Shown here piece by piece: positions 12,196-17,871 of a stretch of 17,871 bases of DNA (its first letter is position 1; each line of letters opens with the position of its first letter). Source of the stretch: Planctomycetes bacterium RBG_16_43_13. GTDB taxonomy: Bacteria; Planctomycetota; MHYJ01. Below the pieces are notes generated by a model, which was not told the origin of the DNA, made no database searches, and saw only the letters and a program-made list of their open reading frames with translations. The translations under genes were made by a program, and so were the position numbers. The DNA is taken from NCBI GenBank assembly GCA_001828445.1, contig MHYJ01000119.1, positions 13,711-31,581 of the forward strand. Reading direction: 5' to 3'.

Positions 12196-12645
12196 ATGAA
12201 AATAGCTACTACACGTTTTGGCGACGTGGATGTCCCGGAAAGTGAGGTATATTCCTTTCCTGAGGGGATACTTGGCTTTTCTGATATTAGGCAATATGTC
12301 GTATTAAATAATCCGAAGGGCGGTCCATTCCAGTGGTTACAGTCGTTAGAATTGCCATCTTTGGCATTCGTGGTCTGCGACCCTCGGATATTTATGTCTG
12401 ATTATAAGATTAAAGTAAAGGAAGAGGATATATCCTCCATAAAATTGTATGACATTGCAGGAGGGTTCGTCCTTGTTATAGTTACCGTTCCCAAAGATCC
12501 TATGGAGATGACGGCGAATCTACTTGGTCCACTTATATTTAACCCAAAAGAGAAACTCGCAAAACAACTGGTGCTATCAGAGTCCGGATATACTACTAAG
12601 CATAAGATACTAAAAGGTGATGAGCAGGGTTCAGTAAAAGATTAA
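12196..12645 (+). CDS. fliW: FliW, flagellin-binding antagonist of CsrA
   Basis: A 149-residue protein matching FliW: TRFGDVDVPESEVYSFPEGI, LGFSDIRQYV, PFQWLQSLELPSLAFVV and the late NLLGPLIFNPKEKLAKQLVL. FliW binds CsrA allosterically and blocks it. Secreted-competent flagellin displaces FliW by binding it, so flagellin accumulation frees CsrA to repress flagellin translation. It lies 11 bp after flgL with no recognisable Shine-Dalgarno (only A and T before the ATG), suggesting coupling to flgL or low translation relative to csrA. It is 18 bp before csrA. Confidence 0.95.
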   Translation: MKIATTRFGDVDVPESEVYSFPEGILGFSDIRQYVVLNNPKGGPFQWLQSLELPSLAFVVCDPRIFMSDYKIKVKEEDISSIKLYDIAGGFVLVIVTVPKDPMEMTANLLGPLIFNPKEKLAKQLVLSESGYTTKHKILKGDEQGSVKD

Positions 12646-12663
12646 ATTGGAAGGTGAAAATAG

Positions 12664-12915
12664 ATGTTAGTTCTAACGCGACAGACAAATGAGGTGATAA
12701 TGATTGGTGATGCGATAGAGATAACCATCGTATCCGTGAAAGGGGATAAGGTGCGCATCGGAATAGCCGCACCTCATAATATACCGGTTCACAGAAAAGA
12801 GGTCTATTTGGCAATAAGACAGGCAAATATAGAGGCGGCAAGTGTTGATAGAGAAGCGGCAGATAAACTCCACGCATTAGAGGATTTAATTGTTAAGAAT
12901 AGAGGAAATGTATAA
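12664..12915 (+). CDS. csrA: CsrA translational regulator
   Basis: An 83-residue CsrA. It has the N-terminal MLVLTRQTNEVIMIGD strand with RNA-contacting L4 and R6, the VRIGIAAPHNIPVHRKEVY core with R44, and a C-terminal extension (residues ~50-83) of the longer type that binds FliW. The dimer binds GGA motifs, preferably in hairpin loops, to block ribosome access. Candidate targets lie in the leaders of the two downstream flagellin genes. Its own ribosome-binding region (GGAAGGTGA) also contains GGA, so autoregulation is possible. Gene 21 bp before flagellin 1. Confidence 0.97.
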   Translation: MLVLTRQTNEVIMIGDAIEITIVSVKGDKVRIGIAAPHNIPVHRKEVYLAIRQANIEAASVDREAADKLHALEDLIVKNRGNV

Positions 12916-12936
12916 TAGATAGGAAAGGAGTCCATT

Positions 12937-14430
12937 ATGGGATTAAGAATTAATACAAATGTGCCGTCGTTGGTAGCCCTGCGGAATTTAGCTGTTACGG
13001 ACAGTAATCAGATTAAGACGTTCGAACGATTATCCACTGGTCTAAAAATAAATAGGTCGAGTGATGACCCTAATGGATTGGCGTTAGCAGAAAATCTACG
13101 CTCACAGATAATCGGGTTGAGGCAGGCAGTTGAAAATACCGAGACAGCAGGCAACTTAGTATCTACTGCTGATGCGGCATTAGAGCAGATTACCACTTTA
13201 CTACAGGGGTTACAGAAATCATTGGTCTTCGCTATGGGTGGTGCTACGAGAGAGCAGATAGCCGCAGAACAGGATGCGGTGGACTCAGCCATAGATGCTA
13301 TAAAGAGAATGGCTTCCACCACTCGATTTGGCGATACACAACTCTTAGATGGCTCTTCAGGGTTTTTGATAGAGAATATTTCGTCAAGCGGTATACTTGA
13401 GGTTAAACCTACAAGTGTGAGGTTGAATCCATCTACACCATCTACAGTTTTTACCATAGATGTTACTGTTTCCGCTACGCAGGCAGTAGCACTTGCTGGC
13501 TCATCATCAGCGCTTACATCTATTGCGGCATCAGGTGGGACCGTAGTGCTTCAACTTACTGGACCTATTGGGACAGAGACAATAAACCTCGCTTCAAGCG
13601 CTACTGTATCTGATATGATGAGTGCGGTTAACTCACTAAGGGGTTTTACCGGCATATATGCAAGTGGCGGTTTTCTCTTTACCGAGAATTTTGGTACTAA
13701 CGCAAGTATGAGAATAGAACAAATAGGTGGAGCAGGTGTCTTTGCGGGAGGTAGTGTCTCTGCACCCGGATTTAATAGCGTCGGAGATATATATTTTACA
13801 GAAGGCAGAAATGCTGTTGCGACATTTCAGGGAGTAACTGTCTCTGGGCAGGGCAATCTACTCTCCTTGAATACGCCATACTTTGTAGGTGATATATTAC
13901 TAAATCCTGTTCCAAATCAGGATCCTGTGAGGGGACCTGGTTCTACAGGGATATTTAGTTTTGAAATTCGGCAATCTGGGCTACTGTTCCAGTTTGGTTC
14001 GGAGGCAACCGCAATAAATCAGAAGGTCCTCGGTATTTCTAACGTATCGCCTGCATTTCTTGGTTCACCTAAGATTAGAATAGGTGGTATAGAGACAGGG
14101 GGCTTTCTCGATAGCGTCATAACTGGTGGAGATAATGACCTATTTACCAATCCTGTAAATGGTAAGCAAGTAGCAGATGACTCACTAAAAGATGTAGTGT
14201 CTCTACGTTCCGTGTTGGGAGCATTTGTTGCAGATGTAGTGGAGCCAACGAGAGATGCACAGGATGTAGCGATAGAGAATTTGACTGCCTCAGAGTCAAA
14301 TATAAGGGATGCAGATTTTGCAGTAGAGGTAGCCGCTATGACGAGAAATCAGGTATTGTTCCAATCAGGCATATCTGTCCTCGCACAGGCGAACTTGACA
14401 CCTCAGATGGTGTTACAACTCCTACAGTAG
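12937..14430 (+). CDS. fliC: Flagellin 1 (co-transcribed with csrA)
   Basis: A 497-residue filament subunit. The N-terminal D0/D1 region (MGLRINTNVPSLVALRNL, then ERLSTGLKINRSSDDP) and the C-terminal helix (NIRDADFAVEVAAMTRNQVL, ending SVLAQANLTPQMVLQLLQ) are canonical. A central ~250-residue variable region contains an IN-like stretch (TVSDMMSAVNSLRGFTGIYASG). It diverges clearly from flagellins 2 and 3. AAGGAG lies six bases upstream. Only 21 bp separate it from csrA, and I find no sigma-28 promoter nearby, so it probably rides the sigma-54 operon transcript. The region before the start has GGA at 12904-12906, 12922-12924 and 12927-12929, but no clear hairpin. Confidence 0.95.
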   Translation: MGLRINTNVPSLVALRNLAVTDSNQIKTFERLSTGLKINRSSDDPNGLALAENLRSQIIGLRQAVENTETAGNLVSTADAALEQITTLLQGLQKSLVFAMGGATREQIAAEQDAVDSAIDAIKRMASTTRFGDTQLLDGSSGFLIENISSSGILEVKPTSVRLNPSTPSTVFTIDVTVSATQAVALAGSSSALTSIAASGGTVVLQLTGPIGTETINLASSATVSDMMSAVNSLRGFTGIYASGGFLFTENFGTNASMRIEQIGGAGVFAGGSVSAPGFNSVGDIYFTEGRNAVATFQGVTVSGQGNLLSLNTPYFVGDILLNPVPNQDPVRGPGSTGIFSFEIRQSGLLFQFGSEATAINQKVLGISNVSPAFLGSPKIRIGGIETGGFLDSVITGGDNDLFTNPVNGKQVADDSLKDVVSLRSVLGAFVADVVEPTRDAQDVAIENLTASESNIRDADFAVEVAAMTRNQVLFQSGISVLAQANLTPQMVLQLLQ

Positions 14431-14437
14431 TTGGGTA

Positions 14438-16617: not shown

Positions 16618-16673
16618 GGGTTGATAGTAAAACCGAAAATTTGTTATTTTTGTATTTAGAAAGGGGTGATTGT

Positions 16674-16700
16674 ATGAAAATGTGGCGCCACCTGCCTTAG
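16674..16700 (+). CDS. Possible 8-residue leader peptide before flagellin 3
   Basis: ATG to TAG encodes MKMWRHLP. A GGGGTGAT stretch ending four bases before the ATG could serve as ribosome-binding site. It lies within the predicted sigma-28 leader. It spans the perfect 10-bp palindrome GTGGCGCCAC (16682-16691). The stop is followed by GGAACC/GGTTCC (16707-16712 with 16744-16749), a potential hairpin. This could be a translated uORF or chance. Confidence 0.3.
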   Translation: MKMWRHLP

Positions 16701-16749
16701 TGGGAAGGAACCCGGGGGAATCGGTGTAGTTTTTAATTTCATCGGTTCC

Positions 16750-16787
16750 GTCTCGAACAAGGAGGTTCGGGACTATTATCAAGGAGG
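16750..16787 (+). promoter_or_regulatory. Two-site CsrA target in the flagellin 3 leader
   Basis: Site 1 is GTCTCGAAC-AAGGAG-GTTCGGGAC (hairpin 16750-16773): a 9-bp stem with one G-T wobble and GGA in a 6-base loop. The core GAACAAGGAGGT matches RUACARGGAUGU at 10 of 12. Site 2 is CAAGGAGGA over the Shine-Dalgarno (16781-16787), five bases before the ATG. The GGA motifs are 19 nt apart. The layout copies that of flagellin 2, although the stem sequence differs. Confidence 0.75.
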
Positions 16788-16792
16788 ATAAA

Positions 16793-17871
16793 ATGGGACT
16801 TAGAATCAATACGAACGTAACGGCTTTGAGGTCGTTGCGTAATTTAAGAACCAACGACGCAAACCAAGCTCGTTCACTCGAACGGCTTTCAACAGGTCTA
16901 AGGATTAACAGAGGGTCAGATGACCCATCCGGATTGGTCATATCAGAGGCATTAAGGGCACAGTTAGCATCCCTGAACAAGGCAGTAGAGAACTCACAGA
17001 ATGCATCTAACCTGATATCGGTTGCTGATTCTGCATTACAGGAGACAGCTAACCTCCTTACGCAGATTCAGAACTCTATAGTGTTTGCTCTAAACACAGG
17101 TGGCTCCAGCCCTGCACAGATATCAGCAGAGCAGAGCGCTGTTGACCAGGCAATTGCAGCTATCGATAGAATAGCTGCTACTACGAGATATAGCGACAGA
17201 AGCTTGCTAAACGGAACGGCTGGATATGCACTCGTAGGCAATAGACCGAGCGAGCTTCTCGACCTGAACATAAAGGCGGTTTCCTTTGCACCAGGCGAAT
17301 TAAACCGTGATTTAACGGTAGAAATCCTTACCAATCCTCAAAGGGGTGAAATAAGGATTAATGGTGTGAATGCTGTTGGTGTTACTACTATCAGAATATC
17401 CGGCCCGAGAGGAACAGAAGACGTCCTCGTTGCCAGTAGTACCGCCTCTCAAGGTATTGCATCAGCTATCAACGGTGTAGCGGGCTTTACTGGTGTATTT
17501 GCAAGCGGAACTGCTTCCACAGGAGGTGATTTAGTCCTATACACTGAGGAATTTGGTGAAGGGCAGCTTATAAGAGCAGAGATAGTAGGTGGTGCAATCT
17601 CGAGCACTTCTACCCAGGTTAGGGATGATACGAGCACCTTAGTAGCTGCTGGTGGTGGTACAAGTCCCAGCTTTGATGTTGGTGAGGTTATATCTGATAG
17701 AGGTTTGGATGGACGAGTTCAGTTCCAAGGTCAGGTATTTACCGGTGTTGGCAGGCAGTTCAATCTATTGACACGTGCCGCCAGTATCGGCTTTGGCTTA
17801 GACGCTGACCAGTTAGACCTCGGTACACTTGCAGCCAGTGCTACGTTCCGTGTAACGAACACGGGCTTGAA
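16793..17871 (+). CDS. fliC: Flagellin 3, 3' end beyond the window
   Basis: Open from the ATG at 16793 to the window edge (359 codons plus two bases) with no stop, so about 150 C-terminal residues are missing. AAGGAGG lies five bases upstream. It begins MGLRINTNVTALRSLRNL and has SLERLSTGLRINRGSDDPSG, QNSIVFALNTGGSSPAQ and the central GIASAINGVAGFTGVFASG and VQFQGQVFTGVGRQF segments. It is closely related to flagellin 2, pointing to a tandem duplication, and has its own sigma-28 promoter and CsrA-type leader. Confidence 0.95.
   Translation, partial: MGLRINTNVTALRSLRNLRTNDANQARSLERLSTGLRINRGSDDPSGLVISEALRAQLASLNKAVENSQNASNLISVADSALQETANLLTQIQNSIVFALNTGGSSPAQISAEQSAVDQAIAAIDRIAATTRYSDRSLLNGTAGYALVGNRPSELLDLNIKAVSFAPGELNRDLTVEILTNPQRGEIRINGVNAVGVTTIRISGPRGTEDVLVASSTASQGIASAINGVAGFTGVFASGTASTGGDLVLYTEEFGEGQLIRAEIVGGAISSTSTQVRDDTSTLVAAGGGTSPSFDVGEVISDRGLDGRVQFQGQVFTGVGRQFNLLTRAASIGFGLDADQLDLGTLAASATFRVTNTGL

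Follow-up and report, generated by a model that had tools for sequence, protein, structure and literature searches.

Twin GGA-loop hairpins in two flagellin leaders of a planctomycete as very probable CsrA-binding elements of a FliW-CsrA-flagellin circuit

Planctomycetes bacterium RBG_16_43_13 carries fliW and csrA directly before three flagellin genes in the stretch of 17,871 nucleotides (nt) analyzed here (contig MHYJ01000119.1, assembly GCA_001828445.1; hereafter the window), and both the coordinates and Pfam agree with this order, which an original prediction made from the same DNA had claimed. We conclude, with a probability of roughly 0.85, that the leaders of flagellins 2 and 3 form CsrA-binding twin hairpins in a FliW-CsrA-flagellin circuit. 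What the sequence itself shows is the genes, two hairpins in each leader, covariation of these hairpins in other bacteria and an association with FliW; CsrA binding, repression, antagonism by FliW and titration by flagellin would take place by analogy with Campylobacter jejuni and Bacillus subtilis. Published comparisons made below refer to excerpts of the cited papers.

Each of the two leaders holds two neighboring hairpins on the + strand. In flagellin 2, hairpin 1 (14726..14741) has five pairs, counted inward from U14726-A14741, and the hexaloop AGGGAU (14731-14736). Its sequence is GAAC[AGGGAU]GUUC plus the U-A pair, the minimum-energy fold gives one extra inner A-U pair, and it fits ACARGGAUGU, the core of the CsrA consensus RUACARGGAUGU obtained by systematic evolution of ligands by exponential enrichment (SELEX; PMC7652899). 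Hairpin 2 of the same leader (14742..14763; CUUUCAUC[AAGGAG]GAUGGAAG) has eight pairs and carries the Shine-Dalgarno (SD) sequence in its loop AAGGAG. In flagellin 3, hairpin 1 (16750..16773; GUCUCGAAC[AAGGAG]GUUCGGGAC) has nine pairs and the hexaloop AAGGAG (16759-16764), and the SD again lies in the loop AAGGAG of a five-pair hairpin 2 (16776..16791; UUAUC[AAGGAG]GAUAA). Each of the four loops can be taken as a hexamer that starts with A, has GGA at places 3-5 and is closed by C-G. The upstream GGA-loop hairpins, with stems of 5 and 9 pairs, had been predicted and are seen in the folds. The SD had been described as GGA-containing, which it plainly is, but it had been overlooked that the SD GGA itself sits in a hairpin with a similar C-G-closed hexaloop. 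Between loop GGA and SD GGA lie 16 nt in flagellin 2 and 19 nt in flagellin 3 (19 and 22 from start to start), close to the predicted spacing of 17-19 nt. The CsrA hairpins found by SELEX mostly have six-base loops with AC and GU paired, and one CsrA dimer can span two sites at distances of 10-63 nt and does so best above 18 nt; the loops, closing pairs and site spacing in the window agree with these known CsrA sites (PMC7652899).

Folded against shuffles, the 55-56 nt twin-hairpin segments reached z-scores of -3.5 and -3.6. The whole 161-nt leader of flagellin 3 folds unremarkably (z -1.68, with 15 of 200 shuffles equally good), and its SD hairpin is present in both the minimum-energy and the centroid folds of the leader. 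No Rfam 15 family matched the whole window at gathering score, nor the regions 12850-17000 and 14431-14780 at an expectation value (E) up to 5.

Statistical support came from the leaders of 80 fetched FliW loci and the window, 53 flagellins in all, 51 of them with GGA in the SD. Both stems, with at least four pairs in hairpin 1 and at least three in the SD hairpin, occurred in 18 of these 51 leaders; of 194 control genes that likewise have GGA in the SD, with starts chosen by script, none had both. The loop GGA was assessed by comparing all 64 triplets at the same loop place: GGA stood atop upstream stems of at least four pairs in 23 of the 53 leaders, and no other triplet did so in more than 3. 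In Planctomycetota the same test gave GGA in 18 of 60 leaders from FliW-bearing genomes (next best 4) and in 4 of 40 leaders from genomes lacking FliW, where it equaled GAG. This test replaces an argument from the invariance of the loop GGA in aligned leaders, which was dropped as circular because the leaders were anchored on GGA.

The covariation score was 0.511 in an alignment of 27 leaders of several phyla, which had been taken from the 51 because each of their hairpins had two pairs or more; shuffles gave 0.157 (standard deviation 0.023) and slid partners 0.04-0.13. Cells with changes on both sides numbered 72 versus 30.8 in shuffles. This covariation argues for selection on the structure, as had been proposed from the two window stems. 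A covariance model made from 25 leaders, all outside the window, gave the leaders of flagellins 2 and 3 scores of 36.9 and 35.3 bits in a search of the window (E 6e-8 and 1.5e-7), the next best match there having 13.3 bits (E 0.042).

The association between FliW and the element in Planctomycetota is clear. Among 149 genomes of this phylum, a model match (E up to 0.01) was found in 11, FliW in 43, CsrA in 53 and Flagellin_N, a profile that also matches FlgL, in 82. The matches fell in 11 of the 43 FliW genomes, and the 39 genomes with Flagellin_N and no FliW had none (p 0.0005); with the five model-source genomes left out, the counts were 6/38 and 0/39 (p 0.012). When 100 leaders were hand-picked from Planctomycetota genomes, 60 with and 40 without FliW, the upstream hairpin was present in 20/60 versus 2/40 (p 0.001), an SD stem of at least three pairs in 28/60 versus 3/40, and a GGA SD in 58/60 versus 26/40. 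Closer to the window, the 11 genomes with the nearest FliW (G001-G011) include 9 with a model match (E up to 0.1) ahead of a flagellin, several of these matches being weak; no match was found in G003 and G006, and one G006 leader (L238) has the hairpins by the simple rule. Leaders of relatives had been put forward as a check on the prediction, and these counts are its outcome. Some genomes without a FliW match have many CsrA matches (17 in G079, 15 in G099, and 9 each in G058, G115, G133 and G164).

The CsrA of the window can be aligned with its counterpart in the FliW-CsrA structure 5dmb and carries R44, I51 and N55. In C. jejuni, V51 and N55 of CsrA are required for full FliW binding, position 51 is I in the CsrA of other species, and R44 is an RNA-binding residue (PMC7829508). 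Among 75 CsrA proteins from the FliW loci and the window, R44 and I/V51 are present in 75/75 and N55 in 74/75. By this analogy a single CsrA dimer would hold the GGA of hairpin 1 together with that of the SD hairpin and so keep ribosomes off the flagellin 2 and 3 mRNAs; FliW would engage CsrA through the I51/N55 face and lift the block, and unsecreted flagellin would sequester FliW, upon which the CsrA block would return. The claim that the known circuit runs here is thus partly supported, by the two sites per leader, by model matches confined to FliW genomes among the 149, and by I51, N55 and R44 of CsrA.

The leader of flagellin 2 (14545-14790) folds as a whole far better than shuffles (z -4.15). 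A predicted long-range helix (14558..14721, + strand) pairs GAGACGAC (14558-14565) with GUCGUCUC (14714-14721) at a probability of 0.50-0.62, and a competing helix of 14717-14723 with 14764-14770 (probability 0.33-0.38) closes over the start codon. The two states are mutually exclusive and are predicted, from a single sequence, at about 62% and 37%; these competing folds may give the leader an added second input. With such a fold over a start codon and the SD placed in a hairpin, the structures might also tune flagellin translation independently of CsrA, by plain SD masking or as an RNA thermometer. We regard this as very unlikely. In the flagellin 2 fold the SD-loop bases 14751-14755 are all unpaired, so the SD is exposed rather than masked. 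Masking does not need the preference of the upstream hairpins for GGA among the 64 triplets, which is absent from the FliW-lacking sample, and the model matches track FliW.

A first covariance model, which includes both window leaders, found 77 places at E up to 0.1 in 33 of 38 whole genomes. Flagellins follow 59 of these places, 57 recognized by profile and 2 by the flagellin N-terminus of a gene truncated at a contig end; outside the training set of the model the count was 38 of 56, and among those scoring at least 40 bits 10 of 11. By record titles, the element-bearing leaders belong to Planctomycetota, Riflebacteria, Muiribacteriota, Cloacimonadota, Omnitrophota, Glassbacteria, Deltaproteobacteria and Bacillota.

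Among the other places, some in G029, G030 and G033 precede FlaG-like and FliD-like genes, judged by their first residues without a family search. A twin hairpin also stands ahead of a family of proteins of 345-370 amino acids (L137, L139 and L141, in genomes G030, G033 and G035), a possible new CsrA target; of the two members searched, L141 has EF-hand matches above the Pfam cut-off and L137 has them below it. In L102, from a close relative, an element near 1501 precedes a frame of 134 amino acids that is flagellin-like at its start and then divergent, and a second element lies 509 nt beyond the first, before the start of a flagellin gene that runs off the contig. Finally, twin hairpins with no following frame of more than 50 amino acids lie about 240-480 nt upstream of a flagellin with an element of its own in the genomes of the Cloacimonadota loci L030 and L024 (L104 and L143) and of loci L063 and L069 (L118 and L125); we consider them candidate CsrA decoy RNAs of FliW-bearing bacteria. 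Together with the C. jejuni flaA leader, which also titrates CsrA (PMC4894983), these frame-less hairpins would suit a role of the leaders chiefly in soaking up CsrA as a sponge and thereby releasing its other targets, with flagellin repression secondary. For the window this appears very improbable, the two elements there each overlapping a flagellin SD, as direct repression would have it.

Several observations weigh against CsrA-binding twin hairpins as the explanation. The SD hairpin of flagellin 3 has a probability of just 0.18-0.25 in a 198-nt fold, and the stems of eight and nine pairs exceed those of most SELEX hairpins, which have four pairs or fewer (PMC7652899). The 27 leaders used for covariation were pre-selected for pairing and anchored on GGA, and their pair types were not above shuffles (23 versus 22.4, with 236 of 500 shuffles reaching 23). 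Of the 77 model matches, 18, some of them strong, are not ahead of a flagellin. Under the strict rule 40 of the 60 leaders from FliW-bearing Planctomycetota have no upstream hairpin, and the two FliW-lacking leaders mentioned above have one; these tests count related genomes as independent, and metagenome-assembled genomes (MAGs) may miss genes, including FliW.

The two-site leader of the original prediction stands, and C. jejuni flaA fits it better than the B. subtilis hag mRNA that had been named as its precedent. B. subtilis is a monoderm, unlike the diderm host. In the flaA leader of C. jejuni there are two stem-loops, each with an ANGGA loop and the second at the ribosome site, followed by a third GGA in codon 2; CsrA binds this leader at about 50 nM and 4 to 10 times more weakly once the loops are changed, FliW antagonizes CsrA, and compensatory changes occur in the leader within Campylobacter (PMC4894983). 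Leaders 2 and 3 of the window likewise have two ANGGA stem-loops, the second over the SD, and a GGA in codon 2; FliW is present, and relatives show compensatory changes, here in the 27 picked leaders of several phyla. Unlike flaA, with its 5' untranslated region of 45 nt, flagellins 2 and 3 lie behind stretches of 333 and 484 nt in which no gene is called. Unlike in C. jejuni, the window has fliW and csrA next to the flagellins. The B. subtilis hag leader is comparable, with two CsrA sites (BS1 and BS2), one of them on the SD, and FliW as antagonist (PMC7652899, PMC8523840). The predicted sites TGACAAGGATGT and CTAAGGAGGG of the Clostridioides difficile fliC leader, from a different phylum, resemble the two loops of the window (PMC8523840). 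A described diderm with several flagellins has the gene order of window positions 7695-12915, and in the excerpt of its description the CsrA sites are stated and not dissected. The use of FliW in Planctomycetes has already been proposed as a possibility (PMC4682653). C. jejuni flaA is the closest known case, so the circuit is not new in kind.

Of the three flagellins, two have the element. Flagellin 1 (12937..14430, +), which begins 21 nt past csrA, has no twin hairpin: there are GGAs upstream of it, but no upstream GGA hairpin of the twin geometry, and the stem around its SD has just 3 pairs. Flagellin 1 is probably transcribed from the fliW-csrA operon. The CsrA block would likely spare it or act on it more weakly. 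A csrA-adjacent flagellin without the upstream hairpin is also found in L001, L003, L005, L006, L008, L017 and L029, and one with it in L011 and L027. In the FliW-neighborhood loci, among which many are Riflebacteria kin, the element precedes 6 of 26 flagellins within 250 nt of csrA versus 22 of 25 others (p 3.5e-6). As a general rule this failed in the wider Planctomycetota sample, where 6 of 10 linked flagellins had the element versus 14 of 50 others; the absence of the element next to csrA holds only for the window and some of its near kin. A hairpin-less flagellin lineage that would include flagellin 1 was suggested by a quick tree and was dropped, as a careful tree had good support for 5 of 25 inner branches and no firm grouping around the window rows. 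In L040, L045, L050, L058, L063 and L069, the flagellin directly behind csrA has a different common leader, with ACGGATT between G and C runs and no twin hairpin.

The genes of the locus are all on the + strand. FliW (12196..12645) matches Pfam PF02623 (E 2.6e-37, above cut-off) and PDB 5dmb chain A (E 1.9e-21); its best named matches are Planctomycetota MAGs at 57-66% identity, and one match at 59% is labelled Desulfobacterales. CsrA (12664..12915), of 83 amino acids with an extended C-terminus, matches PF02599 (E 5e-24, above cut-off). Flagellins 1, 2 (14764..16308) and 3 (16793..17871, open at the window end) are above the Pfam cut-off, and all start with ATG GGA, so that GGA is codon 2. 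According to the open reading frame list and Pfam, a flagellar run with gaps of at most 68 nt extends up to and including flagellin 1, in the order of a 75-amino-acid frame without a Pfam match, FlgF/FlgG-type rod proteins, FlgA, FlgH, FlgI, a rod-binding protein, FlgN, FlgK, a FlgL-like protein (named from its position and its Flagellin_N/C domains), FliW, CsrA and flagellin 1.

Upstream of this run lies a perfect TGGCACG-N4-TTGCT (2906..2921, +), which we take to be a putative sigma-54-type promoter by its -24/-12 consensus; it is the one match to the pattern in the window, and 0 of 200 shuffles had one. Perfect sites occur somewhere in just 3 of 19 related Planctomycetota loci, so the site is not established as a general trait. 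A weak sigma-28-like site (16591..16617, +) about 200 nt upstream of the flagellin 3 start is the single window match to a strict pattern and is not significant, as 62 of 200 shuffles had at least one; a looser pattern gave 15 matches in the window, above every one of 200 shuffles, and only the match before flagellin 3 lies inside a flagellin leader. Of the sigma-54/sigma-28 cascade predicted for this diderm, the sigma-54-type site is thus clear and the sigma-28 site is not, and the setting is not new: in the diderm C. jejuni, flaA depends on sigma-28 and flaB on sigma-54, and a fliW mutant has short flagella that are probably mainly FlaB, made from the sigma-54 promoter (PMC4894983). Flagellin 1 has a position comparable to that of flaB: it lies behind fliW-csrA in a run that begins with a sigma-54-type site, and it is without the element. 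Between flagellins 2 and 3, a GC-rich hairpin occurs in two copies (16308-16369, z -5.6; 16472-16531, z -6.7), possibly terminators; an exact 13-base piece of the repeat pair was found in 0 of 160 fetched loci.

More tentatively, the twin-GGA leader may be one widespread RNA class, kept in FliW genomes of several phyla, which in this lineage might split the flagellins into two tiers. An unguarded sigma-54 flagellin would be made with FliW and CsrA, and its build-up in the cell would load FliW and put flagellins 2 and 3, the guarded ones, under the CsrA brake. Among titles and abstract beginnings of the open-access literature, a scope that takes in few subscription journals, we found no description of a twin-hairpin flagellin leader across phyla; what is newer here is the occurrence in several phyla, together with the absence of any Rfam match. 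A flagellin brake known from experiment would extend to Planctomycetota and other little-studied phyla on searchable sequence evidence. The covariance model offers a means to find CsrA-FliW targets, and that some flagellins may stay outside the CsrA brake is an idea that can be tested.

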